Assembly (NCBI GenBank): GCA_016926255.1
Contig: JAFGOY010000028.1
Coordinates: forward strand, 23,781 to 87,780
DNA length: 64,000 nt
Direction of reading: 5' to 3'
Origin: Anaerolineae bacterium
GTDB taxonomy: Bacteria > Chloroflexota > Anaerolineae > Aggregatilineales > UBA3940
This document shows, piece by piece, positions 4,470-55,498 of this stretch. The position numbers and the translations under genes were made by a program. The notes below the pieces were generated by a model. The model did no database searches, was not told where the DNA came from, and was given only the letters and a program-made list of their open reading frames with translations. Positions within the stretch are counted from its first letter, which is position 1. Each line of letters opens with the position of its first letter.

Positions 4470-4597
4470 AGTCGAGCCTCCGGTGATTTCTATCCACAGA
4501 TGACACAGATAGCACAGATATAGAAATAACACAGACAGCAGGGCTATTTATCCGCGAATTGCGCGAATTGCGCAAATGAATCTCACCGCAGAGGACG

Positions 4598-4643
4598 GCG
4601 ACCATTCTGGTCGCTCAGGAGTTTCGCCTGTGCGAAACGTCCA
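4598..4643. repeat. Double-hairpin intergenic element, copy A
   Basis: GCGACC-attct-GGTCGC then TCAGGA then GTTTCGC-ctgt-GCGAAAC GTCCAC; similar to 11673-11720 and 13859-13883. Confidence 0.6.
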
Positions 4644-4670
4644 CGCAGAGATCGCAAAGGAGAAATCCAC

Positions 4671-4724
4671 CCACCCCCTTCGACCGATCTACGGTCGGCC
4701 ACTTCCCCCTTTCAGGGGGCAGAC
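4671..4724. repeat. Intergenic palindromic element, family I
   Basis: CCACCCCCTTCG-[variable stem]-ACTTCCCCCTTTCAGGGGGCAGA; further copies near 8972-9075 and 38706-38760. Confidence 0.65.
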
Positions 4725-4746
4725 AAGCGCTTATGCAGGATCGAAA

Positions 4747-4785
4747 CGGGGCGCTGGCAGATGTCTGATATCTGCCAGCGCCCCG
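4747..4785 (-). terminator. Strong hairpin downstream of the clostripain-like gene
   Basis: CGGGGCGCTGGCAGAT / ATCTGCCAGCGCCCCG 16-bp stem, 7-nt loop, immediately 3' of the minus-strand CDS. Confidence 0.6.
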
Positions 4786-4804
4786 CGTGGTTAGATACTC
4801 CGGG

Positions 4805-7345
4805 TTACTCGGTGACGGTCACCCAGGTGTACTTCTCGTAGAGATTGCCTTCCATGTCTTCGACGATGAAGCCAAGCAAATAATCGCCGGGGTCGGCATC
4901 GACCGACCACCACTGGATGACCTGATCCTCTTCACCGGTGAAGGTGATCGAATAGCCATCGTAGTAGTTCCAGACGACCTCGTCGCCCTCCCCTTCTTCG
5001 AGCCACCAGTCCGCGACGATAAACTGATCGCCGGGCTGGGGAGTGATCTGACGCGGCGCGCCAAACCCGTCGGCGGTGCCGGTGAAACCATAGACCTCGA
5101 TCAGGTCGCCCTCTTTGTTGTCGAAGCGCAGGTAGGCATCGCGTTCTTTGCCAGTCGAGGCGGAGACGTAGGTGCCTTCGACAAGATAGGTGGCATCTTC
5201 GGCAGTCTCGCCGAACTCTTCCGGCTCAAGGACGGCAAAGACGAAGTTGACCTCGTCGTCAATGGCATAGTAGATCGGCTCCCATTCGAACTCAAGCTCG
5301 ATTGGCCCTTCACCCCAGTCGGGATAGTAGATGCCGCCGATTTCGAGCGAGTCCCCGATGTCGATGTAGTCCTGGTCGATCATCTGGAGGGCATTGTACT
5401 CTTCGTTGTACCAACCGGCGAAGAAGTAGATATAGGCAATCTGGTCGCCGGTGATGGTCGAGGACATGGTGACGAAGTCGCCGGTGCCGGTGGTGACGGT
5501 ATCGGCAGAGAGGACGATATCGGTGATCTCGACGCCCTGAGTCGCGCCCGGTGCTTCGTATTCGGCGCTGCGCTCGGCGACGGCGACTTCGGCGGGGAGG
5601 ACGGTGGGCATCGGGACGCCAACGTAGTGATAGAGCAGGAAGTCATCCCAGAGAGTGTTGGCGGCAAAAGTATAGGAGACGCTGGTATAGGACTCCGACC
5701 CGCCGTAGTCGGTCTGGTAGAGGCTCGAATTGGGGAAGTAGATCGACACGCCGTTCGAGCCAGGGCGGGCCTTGCCGTGCTTTTCCGCTACCACGAACTG
5801 ATTGAGGGCGGCGACGAGATCGACATACGCCTGCTGCACGGCAGGGTCACCGCTTTCGACGGTGACGATTTCGGCAAAGTTCCCAAGATCGATATAGGGG
5901 GGAAGCTGCGAACCAAAGACATCCTGGTAGGACTGGGCATAGGTGCGCGACTCGGCGACAATCCCCTGGTCGATGCCGCCAATGGCAAGGGCCAGATCGT
6001 CGACGGCGGTGTTGAGGGTCTGCATCTGGCCAAGATCGACTGTCGCCAGGGTGATGTCATTGCCGAGGATGTTTTCGAGTTCCGGCTCCCAGAGGGTGTA
6101 GATATCCTCAGTGATGTAGCTATCGACAATCGCCCTGCCGAGATCGGCTCCGGACATGCCGGGGTTACTGACGAGCGATTGGAGGAAGCTGGAATAAGCC
6201 CACCCTACCCCCGGCTCGACTTCCTGGGAAGCGACTGCATAATTGGCATAGGGGGCGATGGCGTTGTAAACCTCGATGTGGCTCATCAGGCAGGCATCGA
6301 AGCCAATCAACTCCAGCTTGTCGATGCCGGTGATCCCCTGAATCTCGTGGAGGGCAGATTCGAGTTCCATCAGCCAGAGCATATCGCCAAAGCCGCGTGC
6401 CAGCGGGATGTCGTCGCGGCCAAGACCATAGGCGGTGGGGTCAGACCAGCCGCCGGGCCAGCCGGTGCCGTGATCGGAGAGGATCAGCGCATAGTTGTCG
6501 GCGGGATAGTTGGTGACCGACCAGGAGACGAAATCGACCAGGGAGTCCATATCGGCCATGTTGACCTCGCCCAGGTCGGCAAGCTCCGGCGAGTTGACCC
6601 ATTCGAGGTCGTTATCGGCCTGGAGATAAAAACGCTTGGTGGTCGTCCAGTTACCGCCGCCGTTATACCCGCCTTCGAAGCGGTCGATCTGCGAGATGAT
6701 ATTTACCTGATCGCTGGAGCCGACGATTTCGGCCTCGTTGAGGTCAACATAGATGTCCATTTCCAGCATTTCGTCGTCGGCATCCTGGTAGAGCATCACC
6801 GTCCAGGTTTCGCCGCCAGCGGTGGATGGCGCAGTGGGTTCGATGACACCGCCGGATGCGCCGGTGCCGGAGGTGATGTTCGCGCCAATCGTCCAGACGA
6901 TGGGGCCAAACACCTCGATCTCGTAAATCTCTTCGAGGGTCACGCCTTCACCGGGGGAGCAGTCGACGGCGAGGACGTCGTAATAATCGGGTGTGTCGAC
7001 GGTGTAGACGATGCTCGCGCCGGGGGCGAGGACTTCGGTGAGGATGTTGGCTCCCCAATATTCGGAAGTGGTGGGATCAATATAGATGCCGCAGATGTCG
7101 ACGCCGTAGTCGTTGATAATCGTGATGGTGGGCGCGCCGGTCACGTCAGGGGGGGCAGACTCTTCTGCGATTTCGTCAGCCTTTTCGAGTGCGTCCTGGG
7201 TGGCAGCAATGATCGCTTCCTGGGTCATCAGTTCGGTGTTAATTGCATCGGTGGTTCCGCAGGCCAGCGACACAAGAATGACTGCCAGGAGGACAGTCAA
7301 CCAGGGCAGCCAGCGTTTACCGTATCGAGCAGAGTGATTTTCCAT
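4805..7345 (-). CDS. Clostripain-like (peptidase C11) secreted lipoprotein
   Basis: Lipobox-like LVSLAC; catalytic context LILSDHGTGWPGGW and LIGFDACLMSHIEVY. Start at 7345 (MENHSARYGK) proposed because AAAGGAG lies just upstream; ORF track start is 7387. Confidence 0.85.
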   Translation of the reverse strand: MENHSARYGKRWLPWLTVLLAVILVSLACGTTDAINTELMTQEAIIAATQDALEKADEIAEESAPPDVTGAPTITIINDYGVDICGIYIDPTTSEYWGANILTEVLAPGASIVYTVDTPDYYDVLAVDCSPGEGVTLEEIYEIEVFGPIVWTIGANITSGTGASGGVIEPTAPSTAGGETWTVMLYQDADDEMLEMDIYVDLNEAEIVGSSDQVNIISQIDRFEGGYNGGGNWTTTKRFYLQADNDLEWVNSPELADLGEVNMADMDSLVDFVSWSVTNYPADNYALILSDHGTGWPGGWSDPTAYGLGRDDIPLARGFGDMLWLMELESALHEIQGITGIDKLELIGFDACLMSHIEVYNAIAPYANYAVASQEVEPGVGWAYSSFLQSLVSNPGMSGADLGRAIVDSYITEDIYTLWEPELENILGNDITLATVDLGQMQTLNTAVDDLALAIGGIDQGIVAESRTYAQSYQDVFGSQLPPYIDLGNFAEIVTVESGDPAVQQAYVDLVAALNQFVVAEKHGKARPGSNGVSIYFPNSSLYQTDYGGSESYTSVSYTFAANTLWDDFLLYHYVGVPMPTVLPAEVAVAERSAEYEAPGATQGVEITDIVLSADTVTTGTGDFVTMSSTITGDQIAYIYFFAGWYNEEYNALQMIDQDYIDIGDSLEIGGIYYPDWGEGPIELEFEWEPIYYAIDDEVNFVFAVLEPEEFGETAEDATYLVEGTYVSASTGKERDAYLRFDNKEGDLIEVYGFTGTADGFGAPRQITPQPGDQFIVADWWLEEGEGDEVVWNYYDGYSITFTGEEDQVIQWWSVDADPGDYLLGFIVEDMEGNLYEKYTWVTVTE

Positions 7346-7541
7346 TCCCATTGCTCCTTTGATCAATAAAGACGGTTCGCTTTTCAAGGATACTCAACTG
7401 CTTCCGTGTTCTCCCAAAACATTAACAATTAGACTCTATTCTTTTTTGTACGGCGGGGCGAATCGGGGAAGGATTCCCAGGTATAAAAGTTTAGGAATTT
7501 AATTCGACCATACTCCCTGTTTTGTGGTTGGATTGAATTGT

Positions 7542-44395: not shown

Positions 44396-45055
44396 TCAGA
44401 CGTTGGTTTCCTGAATATCGCCGGTTGCTATATACACAATACGCTCCGCAAAATTGGTGACCAGATCGGCGAAGCGTTCCAGTTTCTCAGCGATACGCAG
44501 CGTTTCATAAGCAACTTCGATTTTCTTCTGCTTGGTAGTTTCAGCCATGTTCTCAATCAACTGTGTGATCACACTATCATACAGATCGTCCATTTCATCG
44601 TCCCGATTGTAGATGACCTGGGCCAGTTCAACGTTTTTCTGTGTGTAAGCCAACAGGCATTGCTCAAACATGTCTTTAGCCAGATTACCCATCTTCTGGA
44701 TTTGATCAAGTTTGGGCTTCTTGCCGTGTTTACACAGGTGCTTAACTTCACCAGCAATGCCCTTGGATTGATCGCCCATGCGCTCAAGATCAACGATGAT
44801 ATTCAAAGTTGCGACTATAAAGCGCAGGTCGGAGGCGGCGGGCTGCTGGGTGGCGATCAATTCTACGCAGCGTTCCTCAATTGAAAAGCGGGAGTCATTG
44901 ATCTCCTGATCAAAGACGATTACCTGCTGAGCCAGGTCGGCATCCAGATTTGTCAGGGAATCCAATGCCATGTCAAGCTGCTTCTGGACTTTACTGCCCA
45001 TGCGCAGCACATGATCACGTAATTTGGTCAGTTGATTTTCAAATCGCGCTCTCAT
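44396..45055 (-). CDS. phoU: Phosphate uptake regulator PhoU
   Basis: MRARFENQLTKLRDHVLRMGSKVQKQLDMALDSL; RCVELIATQQPAASDLRFIVATLNIIVDLERMGDQSKGIA. Confidence 0.93.
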   Translation of the reverse strand: MRARFENQLTKLRDHVLRMGSKVQKQLDMALDSLTNLDADLAQQVIVFDQEINDSRFSIEERCVELIATQQPAASDLRFIVATLNIIVDLERMGDQSKGIAGEVKHLCKHGKKPKLDQIQKMGNLAKDMFEQCLLAYTQKNVELAQVIYNRDDEMDDLYDSVITQLIENMAETTKQKKIEVAYETLRIAEKLERFADLVTNFAERIVYIATGDIQETNV

Positions 45056-45096: not shown

Positions 45097-45855
45097 TTAA
45101 CCACGTCGCCCCGTAATATATGCCTCTGTCAATTCCTGCTGCGGAGCAGCAAACAGGTCTCCGGTCTTTCCAAACTCGACCATACGCCCCAACCAGAAAA
45201 AACCGGTAAAGTGCGAGGCCCGGGCGGCCTGCTGCATGTTGTGAGTCACAATGACAATGGTGTAGTCTTTTGCAAGTTCACGCATCAGGTCTTCGATGTG
45301 CAAAGTAGCAATCGGGTCTAAAGCGGAACAAGGCTCATCCATCAGGATCACATCCGGCTTAACAGCGATAGCGCGAGCAATGCATAATCGCTGCTGCTGG
45401 CCAGGGTTGAGATCAAGCGCCGGGTCACTGAGACGGTGCTTGACTTCGTTCCATAATCCTGCTCCTTCAAGACTCTCCTGCACAATATCACCCAGATCGT
45501 TTTTGGAAGTCATACCAAGTACACGCGGGCCAAACGCGACGTTATCAAGGATACTCTGCGGAAATGGGTTGGGCCGCTGGAAAACCATGCCTACCTGCTG
45601 CCGCAGATTGGTCACGTCCACGTCTTCGTCATAGATGTTTTTGCCATCCAGCAGGATTTTGCCGACGGTGCGTGTATTCTTGATTGTATCATTCATGCGG
45701 TTAATAGACCGTAAGAACGTAGATTTACCACAACCGGATGGGCCAATCAGGGCCGTGACGCGATTCTTCTGGATCGCAAAATTCAGGTCGATTAGCGCTT
45801 GAAAGTCGCCATAATAAAAGTTGAAATTCTGGACTTCGATTTTATCTCTTGCCAT
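45097..45855 (-). CDS. pstB: Phosphate ABC transporter ATP-binding protein (canonical Walker B, altered signature LNPGQQQR)
   Basis: [70 protein letters not shown]. Confidence 0.93.
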
Positions 45856-46625
45856 CAGCCGAATCGTCCTGTGATGTAATCCTCGGTACGCTGGTCTCGT
45901 GGTCTGGTAAACAGTGCAGCGCCACGTTCAACTTCAATTAACTCGCCATCCAGCATAAAACCCGCTCGATCTGCTACGCGGGCTGCCTGCTGCACGCTGT
46001 GGGGGACCATGATGATACAGTAGTACTGCTTCAACTCCTGCAATGAATCTTCGACAACGCTGGTTGAGAGTGGGTCCAGACCCGACGTCGGGTTATCAAG
46101 CAGAATAACTTCGGGTTCGAGCGCGAGGCTGCGTGCGATGCACAGCCGCTGCTGCTGCCCGCCCGATAATGCAAATGCAGACTTGTGCAAGCGGTCTTTG
46201 ACTTCATCCCAGAGCGCAGCCTGCTGCAGCGATTTTTCGACCTGCTCCTCAAGTACAGCTGTGTCTCGAATCCCGGCCATTTTCAGGCCATAGGTCAGGT
46301 TGTCATAGATTGATCCGGGCAAAGGGCTGGGCAGGGCGAAAACCATGCTGATGTTACGCCGGAGATCGGAGACCACGACATCGGGGTCGAAGATGTTTTT
46401 GCCTTTAAACTCGATCAACCCCTGCCTTTCGCACCCTGCCTTGAGATCGGAAAGCCGGTTCAATAATCTTAATAAGGTTGTTTTTCCACTGCGAGAGGGG
46501 CCAAACAATACAAAAACTTCGTGCGGATAGATATCCAGGCTGATATCTCGCAGCGCTTCTATCTCATCTTCATAGGTGAAATACAGGTTCTTGATGGAGA
46601 GGAGTGGTTCCATTGGCATTACCAC
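45855..46625 (-). CDS. PstB-like ATP-binding protein with degenerate Q-loop and Walker B
   Basis: [81 protein letters not shown]. Confidence 0.88.
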
Positions 46626-47464
46626 TCCCTGCGGCGGCGCATACGTGTACGCACAATAGCTGCCACCAGCGTCAGAGACAATACAAACAATAAGAGTACC
46701 AGCGCAGTCCCATACTGGATTGAGACCGGCATGTCGGGCACCTGGGTCGAGATTACATAGAGATGATAGGGAAGCGCCATCGTTTGATCAAACAATGAGG
46801 CAGGTAGATCGGGTAAGTAGAAGGCGGCCACCGTAAATAACAGTGGCGCAGTCTCGCCAGCGGCACGGCTCAGGCCCAATATAACGCCGGTCAGGATACC
46901 GGGCAAAGCGTGAGGCAGCACCTGATGACGAATGGTCTGCCAGCGGGTTGCGCCCAGGCTCAGGCTGACAACCCGGAAACGCTGCGGCACAGCAAGGATC
47001 GCTTCTTCGGCGGTGCTGATCACAACGGGCAGGGTCATGATGCCCAGCGTCAACGAGCCAGCAATGATGGATGTGCCTAATTTCATGAACAATACAAAGG
47101 CCCCCAACCCGAACAGTCCATAGACAATCGAGGGAATACCGGCAAGATTGACAATTGCCAGCCTGACCCAGCGGGTCAACCGATTCTCGCCAGCGTATTC
47201 CGCCAGATAAATCGCGGTCCCAATTGCCAGGGGGATGCAGGCGATGAAGGTACCGAAGGTCAGCAGCACAGTTCCCAGAATGGCTGGCATGATGCCGCCT
47301 TCACGCATACCGTTGCGCGGCATCGTTGTCAGAAATTCCCAACTAATAGCACCGATGCCCTGAATCACAATAAAGGCAATGACGAGGATTATGGGGATCA
47401 CCACCAGCGCGGCAACGGCGGTTATAATCGCTACAACAACTTTTTGCGCCTGTTGTCTTGACAC
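46619..47464 (-). CDS. pstA: Phosphate ABC transporter permease PstA
   Basis: Six-TM pattern; RVVSLSLGATRWQTIRHQVLPHALPGILTGVILGLSRAAGETAPLLF. Confidence 0.92.
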   Translation of the reverse strand: MSRQQAQKVVVAIITAVAALVVIPIILVIAFIVIQGIGAISWEFLTTMPRNGMREGGIMPAILGTVLLTFGTFIACIPLAIGTAIYLAEYAGENRLTRWVRLAIVNLAGIPSIVYGLFGLGAFVLFMKLGTSIIAGSLTLGIMTLPVVISTAEEAILAVPQRFRVVSLSLGATRWQTIRHQVLPHALPGILTGVILGLSRAAGETAPLLFTVAAFYLPDLPASLFDQTMALPYHLYVISTQVPDMPVSIQYGTALVLLLFVLSLTLVAAIVRTRMRRRREW

Positions 47465-47466
47465 AC

Positions 47467-48441
47467 CTACCCTCTCTTCTGGCGCTGTCCGGCTTCCTGC
47501 ACGCCAACGAGTCTGCTTGCGATTGAATTGATAGCAAAGGTAATGACAAAGAGAATAATGCCGATGCCGAATAAAACGCTGTAATGTAAACTGCCCTGCG
47601 CGACTTCGCCCATCTCAGCGGCAATGGTCGCCGTCATCGTGCGGGCCGGTTGGAAGATCAAACCCGGAGTGAGGTCAGGAATGTTGGCAGCGTTGCCGGT
47701 AACGAGCATGACGGCCATTGTCTCGCCAATGGCACGCCCGATACCAAGCATGATGGCTATTACCAGGCCAGAGCGTGCAGCGGGCAGCACCACCCGCCAG
47801 ATGGTCTGCCACTGAGTTGCACCGATGGCCAGGGCGCCATTACGGTAGGATTTAGGGACTGCATACAGGGCGTCTTCAGAAATACTGATAATCGTCGGCA
47901 AGGACATATAAGCAAGGATCAACGAGCCAGTAAAGATCGTCAGGCCGGTGGGTGCGCCCAGCCGCTGGATCAGGGGAGCAAGAGCGATCCAGCCAAGAAA
48001 GCCGAGCACAATAGAAGGAATTCCTGCGAGTACTTCAATGATGGGCTTGAGGAGGTCGCGCTGCCAATCAGGTGCGATCTCGCCTATATAGATCGCAGTG
48101 ATAAGTCCCAGCGGTATGGCGATGGCGATAGCCCCGGCTGTGACCAGAATTGAACCGACTATCAGAGGCCATATACCGAAAATGCCCTCAATGGGATACC
48201 AGCGTCGGCCAAATAACTGGCGCAGCGGAATATCGAGAAAGGCCGCACTGCCTTCACGCAGCAAAAACAAGAAGATCAGAGCAACTATTACGATCATCGA
48301 GATGCCCGATAGCCAGATCAAACGCTCAATGAAAAACTCCCAGACATCGCGGATACGGAGGTTTGAAAGCCGTTCACGGAGCTGCTCGATGACACTATCA
48401 TCCGAATCAGGAACGACTTTCCAACGCTGTAACAGTTTCAT
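47467..48441 (-). CDS. pstC: Phosphate ABC transporter permease PstC
   Basis: YRNGALAIGATQWQTIWRVVLPAARSGLVIAIMLGIGRAIGETMAVMLVTGNA. Confidence 0.92.
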   Translation of the reverse strand: MKLLQRWKVVPDSDDSVIEQLRERLSNLRIRDVWEFFIERLIWLSGISMIVIVALIFLFLLREGSAAFLDIPLRQLFGRRWYPIEGIFGIWPLIVGSILVTAGAIAIAIPLGLITAIYIGEIAPDWQRDLLKPIIEVLAGIPSIVLGFLGWIALAPLIQRLGAPTGLTIFTGSLILAYMSLPTIISISEDALYAVPKSYRNGALAIGATQWQTIWRVVLPAARSGLVIAIMLGIGRAIGETMAVMLVTGNAANIPDLTPGLIFQPARTMTATIAAEMGEVAQGSLHYSVLFGIGIILFVITFAINSIASRLVGVQEAGQRQKRG

Positions 48442-48444
48442 AGA

Positions 48445-49350
48445 TTATTCCTCATTCAAGGGAACAAAGCCCAGTTCAGCAACAATGGCCTGACCTTCCG
48501 GGCCTCTAATCCAATCGATATATTCTGCGATGCTGCCTTCCGGTTCGCCTGCGGTATACATAAATAAGAAGCGAGACAGGGGATAACTGCCGTCTGCACC
48601 GGTTTCAGTTGTGGGCAGCACATATGGCGAATTCTCATCCTTTGCGATAGCCAGCACTTTTTCATGCTCCGTGACATACCCCAGTCCATCATAGCCAATG
48701 GCGTTGGGATTGCGGCGAATTTCGCTGGTGATGCCAACCGAGGACGGCATGAGTAAGGTCTGCGGGGCAAAAATATCTTCATTTTCGTCGTCACCCTGAC
48801 GAACGACCTGCTCAAGGAAGTAAACGTGCGTACCAGAGTTGGTCTCGCGGGAAAGCAAAACAATAGGAGCATCGCTGCCACCGACTTCGTTCCAGTTGAC
48901 AATACGCCTGGTATAGATGTCCGATAGCTGCTGAATGGTGAGTTGGTCAACTGGATTATCGGGGTGGACGATCACGGCGAGAGCATCAATTGCAACACGG
49001 ATCTCTACCGGATCAAAACCGTTGGCCTGCGCCCCGGCGATCTCTTCTTCTTTCATGGAACGAGAGGCGTTAGCAATATCGACAGTGCCATTAATCAGGG
49101 CCGCGATTCCGGTACCTGAACCACCACCCGTAACGGCAATGGAGACATCTGGCTGGACGGACTGGTAGGCTTCTGCCCAGGCTAAGGCGAGGTTCACCAG
49201 CGTATCAGAGCCTTTATTCTGGATCGCACGGCCTTCTACTGCTTCCTCGGAGGCTGTATCATCGACAGATTGAACACAGGCAGACAGAGCAAACAGCAGA
49301 ATCAAGGGCAGGACAAAGCACATGGCATACTTTGATGGGTGCATAGCCAT
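48445..49350 (-). CDS. pstS: Phosphate-binding lipoprotein PstS
   Basis: Lipobox FALSAC; NKGSDTLVNLALAWAEAYQ, TGGGSGTGIAALINGTVDIANASRSMK, SRETNSGTHVYFLE. Confidence 0.94.
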   Translation of the reverse strand: MAMHPSKYAMCFVLPLILLFALSACVQSVDDTASEEAVEGRAIQNKGSDTLVNLALAWAEAYQSVQPDVSIAVTGGGSGTGIAALINGTVDIANASRSMKEEEIAGAQANGFDPVEIRVAIDALAVIVHPDNPVDQLTIQQLSDIYTRRIVNWNEVGGSDAPIVLLSRETNSGTHVYFLEQVVRQGDDENEDIFAPQTLLMPSSVGITSEIRRNPNAIGYDGLGYVTEHEKVLAIAKDENSPYVLPTTETGADGSYPLSRFLFMYTAGEPEGSIAEYIDWIRGPEGQAIVAELGFVPLNEE

Positions 49351-49652: not shown

Positions 49653-50321
49653 ATGCACAGAAAAATAAAATCCCGGTTAGTTTTCACCCTGATTGCGCTG
49701 CTGCTGCTATCAGCTTGCAGCACTGCACCGGCAACACCGACAGAATCCAGTGCAGATATGGCCGAGGCCAACACACCTGTCGCAGACAATACGAACTCCG
49801 ACGCTCTCGCACCATCCCCCACCGACACGCCACTTCCTGCCGCCACGCAAACCCCTACCGCCACGCAAACCCCTGAGTGGTATCCCTGGCAGGATATGGA
49901 ATTGACCGATGTGGTGACCGGCGAAACATTTACGATCAACGATTATGCCGGGAAAGTCATCCTGCTGGAAACCATGGCGACATGGTGCCCCAACTGCATT
50001 CGCCAGCAGGGACAGGTACGCCAGTTACACGAAAACCTCGGTAACCCCGATGATTTCATATCGATCAGTCTGGATGTCGATCTAAACGAGGACGAAGAGA
50101 TACTCAAAGAATATGTAGCGGAGTGGGGTTTTGATTGGCATTTTGCGGTGTCACCATTATTAGTATCACGGGCACTGGGAAATCTATACACGGCCCAGTA
50201 TCTCAATCCGCCGCTCGACCCGATGATGATCATCGACCGGGACGGCAGCATCGAGCATCTCCCCTATGGTATCAAATCGGTCGAAGAGCTGGAGTCCTTT
50301 GTTCAACCCTACTTCGAATAA
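49653..50321 (+). CDS. TlpA/thioredoxin-like lipoprotein
   Basis: Lipobox LLLSAC; TP-rich linker; KVILLETMATWCPNCIRQQGQVRQLHENL (CxxC). Confidence 0.85.
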   Translation: MHRKIKSRLVFTLIALLLLSACSTAPATPTESSADMAEANTPVADNTNSDALAPSPTDTPLPAATQTPTATQTPEWYPWQDMELTDVVTGETFTINDYAGKVILLETMATWCPNCIRQQGQVRQLHENLGNPDDFISISLDVDLNEDEEILKEYVAEWGFDWHFAVSPLLVSRALGNLYTAQYLNPPLDPMMIIDRDGSIEHLPYGIKSVEELESFVQPYFE

Positions 50322-50338
50322 TCGAGGCTATATAGAAA

Positions 50339-51013
50339 ATGGATATAGCAATCACTTCCTTTGTTCTCGGACTTCTCTCTGCGGGAAGCCCCTGTATTCT
50401 GCCACTTTATCCGGGATTCCTGGCCTACTTAAGTGGCCAGACTGAGACTGATTCGGGTAACCGGCTCTACTTCCTGGGAGTCTTCGTGCTGATGGGGGTG
50501 CTGAGTATGATGCTCCTCCTCGGCGCGATCATCGCGCTGCTGGCGGTGCCAGTCGGGAGAGTGCTGGTTTATCTGGTACCCACAGCGGATTTCCTGATTT
50601 TCCTCCTGGGCGTGGCAATGCTGCTGAACTATAATCCCTTTAAGCTGCTGCCCCAGATTCAGGTGCCATTCCTGCGCCACCCCTATCTGAACGCCTATGT
50701 ATATGGACTGCTGTACGGGCCAATCACGCTGCCATGCTCAGGGCCGCTTCTCGTGAGCATATTCGCCCTGTCGCTGACACTTGGCGAAGCCTTCAGCCAG
50801 TTCTGGGTTTTCATCTGGTACGGGCTGGGATTTGGCCTGCCGCTGCTGGCGCTTTCCCTGCTTTCGGGGACACTTCAACGCCAGATAGTCAGGCAGTTTG
50901 CAAAGCGCGCCCGGTTGATCAACATCATCGGCGGGCTGCTGCTGATTGGAGTCGCCGTGTACGATCTTTATAAGAACTGGCCGATGCTCCAGGCCTTCCT
51001 GTTCAGGGGCTGA
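50339..51013 (+). CDS. CcdA/DsbD-like cytochrome c biogenesis membrane protein
   Basis: FVLGLLSAGSPCILPLYPGFLAYLSG and LYGPITLPCSGPLL: paired Cys/Pro motifs in TM segments. Confidence 0.85.
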   Translation: MDIAITSFVLGLLSAGSPCILPLYPGFLAYLSGQTETDSGNRLYFLGVFVLMGVLSMMLLLGAIIALLAVPVGRVLVYLVPTADFLIFLLGVAMLLNYNPFKLLPQIQVPFLRHPYLNAYVYGLLYGPITLPCSGPLLVSIFALSLTLGEAFSQFWVFIWYGLGFGLPLLALSLLSGTLQRQIVRQFAKRARLINIIGGLLLIGVAVYDLYKNWPMLQAFLFRG

Positions 51014-52123: not shown

Positions 52124-55100
52124 ATGGCAAAGCTGATCGCCGATTCGTTTACCATCCATATCACAGGCACACCCGATGCCTGCACCATCGAGGCCCACGG
52201 CCCCGGCAAAGCCGTCGCGCCGCCGCACCGGTTCGAATGGAACGCCACACCCGAACAATCCGACATACTCCGCGCGCTGCACGAAAGCCATTCGACCGTC
52301 TCCCACGACAACCTGATCGTTCTGGGGCAGGCGCTTTACCGGAGCATGTTCACGCCCGACGTCGCCGCAGCATTCGACGAAGCACGCCGGAATCTCAAAA
52401 GCGATACCGGAATCCGGCTGCGCCTCAACATCGAACCGGCGGCGCTGGCCGCCCTGCCCTGGGAACTGATGCACGATGGCCGCGAATTCCTGACGGTGCG
52501 CAGCAGCTTCCCCCTCGTCAGGACAATGGGCAGCGAGCAGATCATGCCCCGGATGACGATCCGCGGCCCGCTCCGCATTCTCTACATCGGCGCATCGCCG
52601 CAAACGCTCCCACCCCTGAACCTTGAAGGCCCGGCGCTCGATCTGCAGGACATGCTGGGCAGGGAAAACGCGCGGCGGATTCAATTCGATATCATGATGG
52701 ACGCCACGCTGGAAAATCTGCGAACGGAACTATTAAAGGATTACCACGTGCTTTGCTTCGCCGGGCATGGCGACGAATCCTGCATCTATCTCGATGATGG
52801 ATACGGCGGCGCGCAGGAGATCTCCGCACGCGGGCTGGCGCGCGAACTGGACGGCAAATCGACACGGATGCTTTTCCTCGCTTCGTGCGAAACCGGGGCG
52901 GCGGTCGAAGAGGGCGGCCAGTTGGAGGGATTCGCCCGGCAGGTCGCCCGGCTGGCTGAACTCCCCGCCGTGGCAGCGATGCAGTACGCGGTCAGCGATT
53001 ACCGGGCCAACCGGTTGACGGCGCGCTTCTTCGAAGTGCTGGCCGCGTTCCGCCCGGTCGACGTGGCACTGGCCGAGGCACGAAAAGTCACCATCTCGCA
53101 GGATCAAACCAACCGGGACGTGTTCTCGCCCGTGCTTTATCTCCAGAGCGAAACCAGCAATATCTTCCAGAAGGCCCGCAACTGGGTGGCGATCGGGTTT
53201 GCGCTGGCCTTCATTCTTGCCAGCATCATCGGGATCGGGGCACTGGTTCAGGCACGGGGACAGTCCGCGCAGCGAATCGAAGCAGAAGCCACCGCGCAGA
53301 TGGAAAGCACGCAGCGGGCCTATGCCGAAGCGACCGCCGCCGTCGAAGCAGAACAACGCACCGAAGCCGAAGCGACTGCTGCCGCAGAGGCAGAAGAACG
53401 CGCCCGGCAGGAGGCGATCTCCCGGTCAATCGAACTGGCTTCGACCGCCGCCGAATTCATCGACGAGGGCCGCGATCTCTCGCTGCTGTTGAGCGTACTG
53501 GCCGCACAAACCGCTGACACAATCCCCGCCCGGAGCAGCCTGCTGGCCGCCATCAACTACGATCCGCACCTCGCCCATCATTTACACGATGCCCGCGCGA
53601 TCGGGTTCACGCCGGACGGCCAACAGATCGCCGGTATCGCCTGCGGAGAAACATGCGACGACAGCGCGACGATCTTCTGGGATACCGCAAGCGGCCAGCG
53701 CACGGATCGACGGTTCGCCATCGAAAGCGATTCGGAAACAACCGCAGCCTATCACCCGGACAGCGGCAGGCTCGTCTCAGGCAGGGGCAGCACGCTTTAC
53801 CTGTGGGATGTTGCCAGCGGGGAACCGATCGACACACTGCCGCTCGACTCGATCATGGAAGGCAACCAGCAGATACGCAAAATCGCGTTCAGCCCTGACG
53901 GGTCGCTGGCGGCGGCGGGCATCTCCGGTTCGTTCGAGGCTTACGTCATGATCTGGAATACAGAAACAGGGGGCGTGATCGGCCCGATAGCGTTATCAAG
54001 CCCTAACCTCACCGGGCTGGCAATCGATCCGGGCAATCGCTATCTGGCGGCAGCCATAAGCAATACAGAAAGCCAGATCATCGATCTCGAAAGCGGGGCG
54101 GCGCATCCGCCGGTCGGTCTGCCGGATACCAGTGTGATGGCCGCCGCTTTCAGCCCGGACGGAACCACGCTGGCGCTGGCCGCATCGAACGGGCTGGTAT
54201 ACCTAGTCGATCCGGTCAGCGGCGGTCTCATCGCCAATCCACTCGATGGGGAGACCAGCGGCGCGTTCAGCCTCGATTTCAGCGCGGATGGGCGTATGCT
54301 GGCCGTGGGATACTACAACGACAGCGCGATTGTCTGGGAGTTGGGAACATACCAGAAGTTGGACCAGTTCTTTGCCGGAACACCCGACGGCCCCACCATG
54401 CCCAACCGGATCACAACTGTTCGATTCAGCACCGACGGCAAACAGTTGATCACCGGTTCGCCATCGATGGTATGGAATCTGGAAGAGCCGCACCCGCTTG
54501 GCAGAGAAACGTACAGCCACACAAGCTGGGTCACCGACCTGGCGTTCAATCGGGATGGCAGTCGATTGGCTTCCGTCGACCCCGGCGGCACACTGATCGA
54601 ACTCGACGTTTTATCAAACACACAGCAGTCACGTCAGTTGTCGGAAGGCGCGTATGCTGTGACGTATACAGACGGCGGCCAACTGCTGGTCGCGACTGAC
54701 GAAGATTCCACCCTCAAAGTGTGGGATGCCGCCGCCGATCAGCCCATCGCCGTTTTGCTACCGGCCCAGGTGCGAGATCGTCCATGGCGCAGCATCGTCT
54801 TCAGCCCTGATGGATCGCAGCTGGCGGCGGTGGGGTTCGGCCCCTTTGTCACGCTCCGGGATATCGAAAGCGCGAACGTGATCGCCGATATCGACCTGAC
54901 CGGAGAAAGCGGGCGCAACCTAGCTTTCTCCAATGATGGCTCGATACTGGCCGTCAGCGCCGACAATGGCCCCATTCAACTGATCGATACGTCGACCGGC
55001 CAGCCGGGGCTGGCGCTCGATTACGGTCAATCGGGGACATACTGGCAGAGTCTCGCCTTCACCCCCGACGACCTCCGGCTGGTCAGCGGCGGGCTGAGTT

Positions 55101-55498
55101 TCACCATCACCCAATGGGATGTATCCACCGGGTCACACTTCGATACGGAGTTGATCGGGCACAGCGGCAGCATCAACGATCTGGCTTTCGACTCAACTGG
55201 CGGCATCCTGTTCTCGGCGGCGGAAGAACAGTTTATGTTGTGGAATATCAATACAGGGGAGCTTATCGGATCATTCCAGACAGAGGATAAAATTGTCAGC
55301 CCGTTTTACCGGATTGCCATCAGCCCGGACGATCAATTGGCCGCGACCGGATCATCGGATGGCACCGTCATACTCTGGGATTTGCAGCCACAGAGGTGGA
55401 TCGAAGCCGCCTGCCGGATGGCAAATCGAGAGCTAACGCTGGAAGAATGGGAAAATTATATGGGTGACGAACCCTACCGGGAGATATGCGCCAACTGA
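52124..55498 (+). CDS. CHAT-domain (caspase-like) protein with TM, coiled coil and C-terminal WD40 repeats
   Basis: CHAT motifs ALPWELMHDG, VLCFAGHGDE, LFLASCETGA; TM WVAIGFALAFILASIIGIGAL; Ala/Glu-rich coiled coil; many FSPDGxxLA...W WD40 units; C-term ACRMANRELTLEEWENYMGDEPYREIC. Confidence 0.9.
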   Translation: MAKLIADSFTIHITGTPDACTIEAHGPGKAVAPPHRFEWNATPEQSDILRALHESHSTVSHDNLIVLGQALYRSMFTPDVAAAFDEARRNLKSDTGIRLRLNIEPAALAALPWELMHDGREFLTVRSSFPLVRTMGSEQIMPRMTIRGPLRILYIGASPQTLPPLNLEGPALDLQDMLGRENARRIQFDIMMDATLENLRTELLKDYHVLCFAGHGDESCIYLDDGYGGAQEISARGLARELDGKSTRMLFLASCETGAAVEEGGQLEGFARQVARLAELPAVAAMQYAVSDYRANRLTARFFEVLAAFRPVDVALAEARKVTISQDQTNRDVFSPVLYLQSETSNIFQKARNWVAIGFALAFILASIIGIGALVQARGQSAQRIEAEATAQMESTQRAYAEATAAVEAEQRTEAEATAAAEAEERARQEAISRSIELASTAAEFIDEGRDLSLLLSVLAAQTADTIPARSSLLAAINYDPHLAHHLHDARAIGFTPDGQQIAGIACGETCDDSATIFWDTASGQRTDRRFAIESDSETTAAYHPDSGRLVSGRGSTLYLWDVASGEPIDTLPLDSIMEGNQQIRKIAFSPDGSLAAAGISGSFEAYVMIWNTETGGVIGPIALSSPNLTGLAIDPGNRYLAAAISNTESQIIDLESGAAHPPVGLPDTSVMAAAFSPDGTTLALAASNGLVYLVDPVSGGLIANPLDGETSGAFSLDFSADGRMLAVGYYNDSAIVWELGTYQKLDQFFAGTPDGPTMPNRITTVRFSTDGKQLITGSPSMVWNLEEPHPLGRETYSHTSWVTDLAFNRDGSRLASVDPGGTLIELDVLSNTQQSRQLSEGAYAVTYTDGGQLLVATDEDSTLKVWDAAADQPIAVLLPAQVRDRPWRSIVFSPDGSQLAAVGFGPFVTLRDIESANVIADIDLTGESGRNLAFSNDGSILAVSADNGPIQLIDTSTGQPGLALDYGQSGTYWQSLAFTPDDLRLVSGGLSFTITQWDVSTGSHFDTELIGHSGSINDLAFDSTGGILFSAAEEQFMLWNINTGELIGSFQTEDKIVSPFYRIAISPDDQLAATGSSDGTVILWDLQPQRWIEAACRMANRELTLEEWENYMGDEPYREICAN

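Follow-up and report, generated by a model that had tools for sequence, protein, structure and literature searches.

How is a phosphate importer of the ATP-binding cassette (ABC) type powered when its operon encodes two adjacent, dissimilar PstB ATPases, each altered in part of its ATP-site motifs? The question is raised by a pst operon in a 64,000-nucleotide stretch of an Anaerolineae bacterium genome (contig JAFGOY010000028.1; the whole stretch is hereafter the window), in which the two ATPases, called b and a in operon order, lie side by side. The usual view of PstB is of a homodimer whose two sites are equivalent. In an ABC dimer, each site combines the Walker A, Q-loop, Walker B and His from one subunit with the signature of its partner (PMC7756269), and because the sites are composite across chains, an a:b pair would contain one complete site and one without Gln, Glu and a normal signature. 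The explanation that best fits the sequences, and very probably the right one, is an obligate a:b heterodimer under the PstC/PstA permeases, in which one ATP site is consensus and the other degenerate.

Motifs of the window pair and its close relatives

The motif residues of both chains were taken directly from codons. The original prediction, made from the DNA alone, had placed two adjacent PstB open reading frames (ORFs) here, and both were confirmed on the minus strand, the opposite strand there being riddled with stop codons. For b, the frame proposed (45855-46625) is open as claimed, but the start is probably the ATG at 46619, overlapping the pstA stop codon (TAATG), rather than the GTG at 46625 to which the ORF extends back. 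The degenerate ATPase subunit b is encoded by pstB(b) at 45855-46619 (minus strand), and the catalytic subunit a, with its altered signature, by pstB(a) at 45097-45855 (minus strand), the start of which sits within the stop codon of pstB(b) (TGATG). Stop/start overlaps of this sort are a frequent means of coupling translation.

In b (all positions on the minus strand), the degenerate site is represented by the Walker A motif with its Lys kept (46476-46502), the Q-loop VFALP with Ala for Gln (46329-46343), and the Walker B/D-loop DNPTSGLD (46074-46097), in which the catalytic Glu is replaced by Asn (AAC, 46092-46094); the H-loop His is kept (VPHS, 45999-46001), and the intact signature LSGGQ (46155-46169) belongs to the consensus site. 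In a (also minus strand), the Walker A motif GPSGCGKST (45718-45744), the Q-loop Gln (45577-45579), the catalytic Glu174 (45334-45336) and the H-loop His205 (45241-45243) all belong to the consensus site, while the signature, LNPGQ (45397-45411; Asn for Ser, Pro for the first Gly), contributes to the degenerate one. The codons bear out the motifs originally read for both chains, namely a Q-loop Ala and a Walker B Asn beside an intact LSGGQ in b, and a normal Q-loop and Walker B beside LNPGQ in a, together with the claim built on them: every non-consensus residue of the pair falls within a single composite site, and the other site is consensus.

Orthologous pairs in five relatives (two families of the same order; 64-77% protein identity) carry the same lesions, with VFA[LVI]P, DNPTSGLD and LSGGQ in b, and VFQRP, MDEP and L[NS]PGQ in a. 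Canonical DEP/LSGGQ motifs in relatives, which would have marked the window pair as a one-off, were not seen; every related pair has the same split of lesions. Pairwise ratios of nonsynonymous to synonymous substitution (dN/dS) are 0.08-0.11 for a and for b where dS was measurable, and the frames of a and b are open in all genomes read; both subunits are under purifying selection. A decaying, redundant duplicate would be expected to lose catalytic residues, as b has, and a canonical pst operon is present elsewhere in the genome; such decay is nevertheless scarcely credible for b, since its dN/dS is about 0.1, its frame is intact, the gene order is conserved over several phyla, and the lesions are limited to one composite site.

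Partition of lesions and the case for an a:b heterodimer

The split of lesions extends well beyond the close relatives. All 121 distinct adjacent same-strand pairs that include a Q-less chain have b first, followed by a with an altered signature, and six divergent pairs agree with the same split, while the five canonical tandem pairs (four from Firmicutes) have both signatures intact in every case. In a set of 501 distinct PstB chains, the Walker A Lys, Q-loop Gln, catalytic Glu or H-loop His (K, Q, E, H) is altered in 177 and the signature in 173 (the latter including a few LSVGQ/LSAGQ singletons from a third PstB-like subfamily); 151 chains have neither kind of lesion and none has both. Fisher's test of this exclusivity gives p = 1e-43, a value that ignores shared ancestry and is not readable as a probability.

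Counts of fewest changes, made on trees that exclude the motif columns so as to lessen the ancestry problem, give the same picture. The 167 a chains require at least 23, 7, 2 and 8 changes at S, G, G and Q of the signature (at least 40 in total) and none at K, Q, E and H, the 176 b chains require 4, 3, 6 and 3 changes at K, Q, E and H (16 in total) and none in SGGQ, and the 152 canonical chains require one change in all; the Q-loop entries are built into the class definitions, whereas the counts at positions K, E and H in a, and across SGGQ in b, are independent of them. Thus Gln is missing from 176/176 b chains by definition, SGGQ is invariant in all 176, and Glu occupies the catalytic position in 167/167 a chains. 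The Walker A Lys is kept in 172 of the 176 b chains, the H-loop His is lost in about one third, and the catalytic Glu is lost in 53. The substitutions of the window pair had been proposed for a co-occurrence test, in which the loss of the Q-loop Gln with an altered partner signature proved universal, and the loss of the catalytic Glu did not. An altered-signature PstB was found in 168 of the 176 genomes with b, including one (G062) in which a is truncated at a contig end (L140).

These patterns suggest that the two Pst ATPases have become dedicated partners, working beneath PstC/PstA as an obligate heterodimer; the gene order and the stop/start overlap are suggestive of such pairing as well. 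Hydrolysis of ATP to drive uptake would take place at the consensus site, to which a gives its Walker A, Q-loop, Walker B Glu and His, and b its LSGGQ. The degenerate site, formed by the Walker A of b, with Ala for Gln and Asn for Glu, and the LNPGQ of a, would hydrolyse slowly or not at all; it probably still binds ATP, to judge from the Lys and His kept in b, and may serve as a structural or regulatory element (a tether, a timing device or a signal to PhoU). A b:b dimer would lack the catalytic Glu, and an a:a dimer would have altered signatures only. In E. coli PstB, the signature mutation Q160K and the Walker B mutation E179Q each abolish transport and lock opposite signalling states (PMC5775613); as that protein is homodimeric, a:a and b:b would both be expected to be impaired, with only a:b offering a complete site.

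The alternative in which an a:a homodimer powers uptake, with b as a non-catalytic regulator of, for example, PhoU signalling or assembly, draws on the singleton PstB-like proteins with an altered third signature position (LSVGQ), and on E. faecalis, where one of two PstBs suffices if overexpressed (PMC12096839). It is unlikely in view of the a chains of other lineages (LSLEQ, LPLDQ, LSPEQ), in which both glycines are replaced, one by an acidic residue, which should block the ATP sandwich; the invariant SGGQ of b is likewise hard to explain unless this signature serves the partner's ATP, and the E. coli signature mutation cited above abolishes transport.

Several points weigh against an obligate a:b heterodimer. 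The physical dimer, a single hydrolysis per cycle and an effect on PhoU signalling are all inferred, and the monomer model of subunit a was poor (predicted local distance difference test score (pLDDT) 55; shallow alignment) and was not used. The third PstB-like subfamily (LSVGQ/LSAGQ, e.g. contig 66 of the window's genome, G000) has an altered signature although no PstB partner lies next to it, which implies that a homodimer may survive a change confined to its signature. Eight of the 176 b-bearing genomes have no altered-signature partner in the sequence searched (G181, G186, G297, G312, G345, G370, G407, G470); six of them are drafts, from which the partner may be missing, and the other two, G345 and G407, are 99% complete, with a b altered only by Gln to Ser and the other PstB found canonical (L385 and L384, respectively). 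The mild b of these two could be an early step towards, or a reversal of, the degenerate pair. Finally, the window's genome also holds a canonical PstB (contig 80) able to pair with a or b. Pairing of a or b with the canonical PstB of another pst operon, giving mixed dimers rather than strict a:b, would suit this last genome as well as G345 and G407, and is nonetheless quite improbable: a and b are adjacent in the 121 loci described above, and they are the sole PstBs at E <= 1e-70 in six complete or draft genomes (G476, in one contig, G162, G154, G165, G200 and G159), whose importer therefore has nothing else to run on.

Some further PstB loci were noted. In the canonical pst operon on contig 80 (L049), PstB is followed by an ORF that apparently starts as an arsenate reductase/low-molecular-weight phosphatase and continues into PhoU. 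The contig 66 member of the third subfamily (L048, ORF 4547-5338, plus strand) has its own pstC/pstA upstream, its motifs being LSVGQ (signature), DEST (Walker B) and LAQKPFP (Q-loop). Relatives have comparable proteins (L043, L046, L047, L052), with no second PstB seen alongside. In a Streptococcus metagenome-assembled genome, Arg stands at the H-loop His position (VTRSMQQA) in the second PstB of a tandem pair (L090, 5971-6750, plus strand). One chain, read later than the 501-chain count and located on a contig of 3.7 kb (L439), combines the two types of lesion (LSPGQ and LDRP); it was rejected as an exception, being an a/b chimera with an a-like N-half and a b-like C-half, probably a product of assembly or recombination. 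The PstB chain of L453 (G1399 contig 142, 2217-3038, minus strand) has an a-like N-half and a b-like C-half joined near the signature, and is probably an assembly artefact or recombination product. Coupled evolution of Glu loss in b with the signature type of a was also considered, with 104 of 105 genomes in agreement, but as these represent only about two independent changes on the tree, the coupling is without phylogenetic significance.

Distribution, styles and origin of the degenerate site

A search with a profile of b located the subunit in 9 of 154 genomes from the order and, in 396 sampled genomes of the class, gave at least 149 at 3.6e-107 or better among the matches listed; the approximately 100 class members in that score range whose DNA was read are all Q-loop-less, and profile matches near 1e-92 in the order are canonical PstBs. 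A second class of the phylum contributes one further b (G522). Beyond the phylum, records titled Elusimicrobia, Ignavibacteriae, WOR-1 and Bacillota share the layout, as do many genomes from the groups surrounding the first three. Gene a is mostly located directly downstream of b, and in other lineages is divergent beside pstS, on the same strand upstream of pstS, or unlinked. A contig scan by peptide patterns (QAALW..., GGQQQRLC) returned mostly canonical PstBs, since the patterns are not b-specific.

Four styles of the degenerate site were distinguished. In style i, that of the window, b has Ala for Gln and Asn for Glu with the His kept, and a has L[NST]PGQ, with LNGGQ, LNAGQ, LNSGQ and LDGGQ among the a signatures of relatives. 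In style ii, b has Ala for Gln with Glu and His kept, and a has LSLGQ or LALGQ. In style iii (Elusimicrobia, WOR-1, Ignavibacteriae), b has Ala for Gln and Asn for the H-loop His with Glu kept, and a has LSLEQ, LTLEQ or LPLDQ. In style iv (Bacillota), b has Ile for the Walker A Lys, Asp for Gln and Arg for Glu, and a has LTPGQ or LSPEQ.

In a 102-row tree, b forms two strong clades plus a Bacillota sequence, and a forms two strong clades plus two single sequences; approximately unbiased (AU) tests reject neither a single a clade (p 0.53) nor a single b clade (p 0.48). We tentatively suggest that Pst in large parts of several phyla may run on a single hydrolytic site, and that this design may have arisen more than once by a Q-loop-first route, with loss of Gln and His (LSLEQ lineages), of Gln and Glu (LNPGQ lineages), or of Lys, Gln and Glu (Bacillota).

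Operon context and comparison with known systems

The two ATPase genes are the fourth and fifth of a complete Pst-PhoU operon on the minus strand, in the order pstS-pstC-pstA-pstB(b)-pstB(a)-phoU, as judged by NCBIfam cut-offs. The other genes encode the phosphate-binding protein PstS (48445-49350; TIGR02136, 266.6 bits, cut-off 206.6), the permeases PstC (47467-48441; TIGR02138, 272.7 bits, cut-off 196.45) and PstA (46619-47464; TIGR00974, 284 bits, cut-off 193.45) and, last, the phosphate signalling protein PhoU (44396-45055; TIGR02135, 207.5 bits, cut-off 130.25). Subunits a and b share 44% protein identity. Subunit a exceeds the curated cut-off of the PstB equivalog TIGR00972 (380 bits, cut-off 343.2), while b falls below it at 318.9 bits with TIGR00972 still its best family, and is therefore to be seen as a PstB paralogue that has diverged, not as an equivalog, which matters for annotation. 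A PstA-b gene fusion, suggested by open frames of 550-590 amino acids (aa) at several loci, was ruled out, as pstA and b are in different frames.

Elsewhere in the window, sequence reading alone points to an apparent thioredoxin-like lipoprotein followed by a CcdA-type membrane protein (49653-51013, plus strand), divergent from the pst operon, and to a 1124 aa protein (52124-55498, plus strand) with an apparent N-terminal CHAT-like protease domain followed by WD40-like repeats. Two ORFs of 860 aa overlap on opposite strands at 4787-7387; the minus-strand one resembles a clostripain-type protease, and the other is probably a mirror frame.

If true, the conservation across several phyla of a PstB pair with a single degenerate site would imply that one hydrolytic site is enough for a core nutrient importer to work. 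Such a pair would also provide an importer with separate nucleotide-binding domains (NBDs) and a graded set of intermediates (with Glu kept, or with Glu, His or Lys lost) for testing the purpose of degenerate sites, and, should the design have multiple origins, Pst would constitute a natural series on why degenerate ABC sites evolve.

No report of a degenerate PstB pair was found in the open-access literature searched, subscription papers being outside the search. The original prediction had called such a layout unexpected for a PstB pair, which holds for the degenerate site but less so for the pairing itself. Adjacent pstB genes are known in Firmicutes, and E. faecalis pstB1/pstB2 resemble the window pair in being two adjacent, diverged genes of unequal roles in one pst-phoU operon, but the motifs of Firmicutes tandem pairs are intact in both copies (PMC12096839), unlike those found here. 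B. subtilis PstBA/PstBB have likewise been modelled as a pair of two different NBDs, with no degenerate site mentioned for them in the parts of the source consulted (PMC11466899). According to the same work, RbsA and NupO are importer ATPases with one degenerate site, as here, but with fused NBDs and in other importers. The E. coli PstSCAB structures (PDB 9k3s, 9k3x, 9k3y) offer a match in fold, the predicted structure of b (pLDDT 86.6) superposing on PstB chain C (9k3s/9k3x) with template modelling (TM) scores of 0.90-0.95, but in each entry PstB is paired with itself (4 chains over 2 entries), where the window has two distinct chains.

Degenerate sites are common among exporters (PMC7756269), and the likeness to asymmetric heterodimeric exporters drawn in the original prediction holds for the layout. 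In TM287/288, TAP and CFTR (PMC7756269), a Walker B lesion in one domain and a signature lesion in the other also meet in one composite site, leaving the other consensus. These are exporters or a channel with fused chains of transmembrane domain (TMD) and NBD, whereas the window pair consists of separate NBDs serving an importer whose TMDs are PstC and PstA, and its universal lesion is the loss of the Q-loop Gln together with an altered partner signature, rather than the loss of the Walker B Glu.
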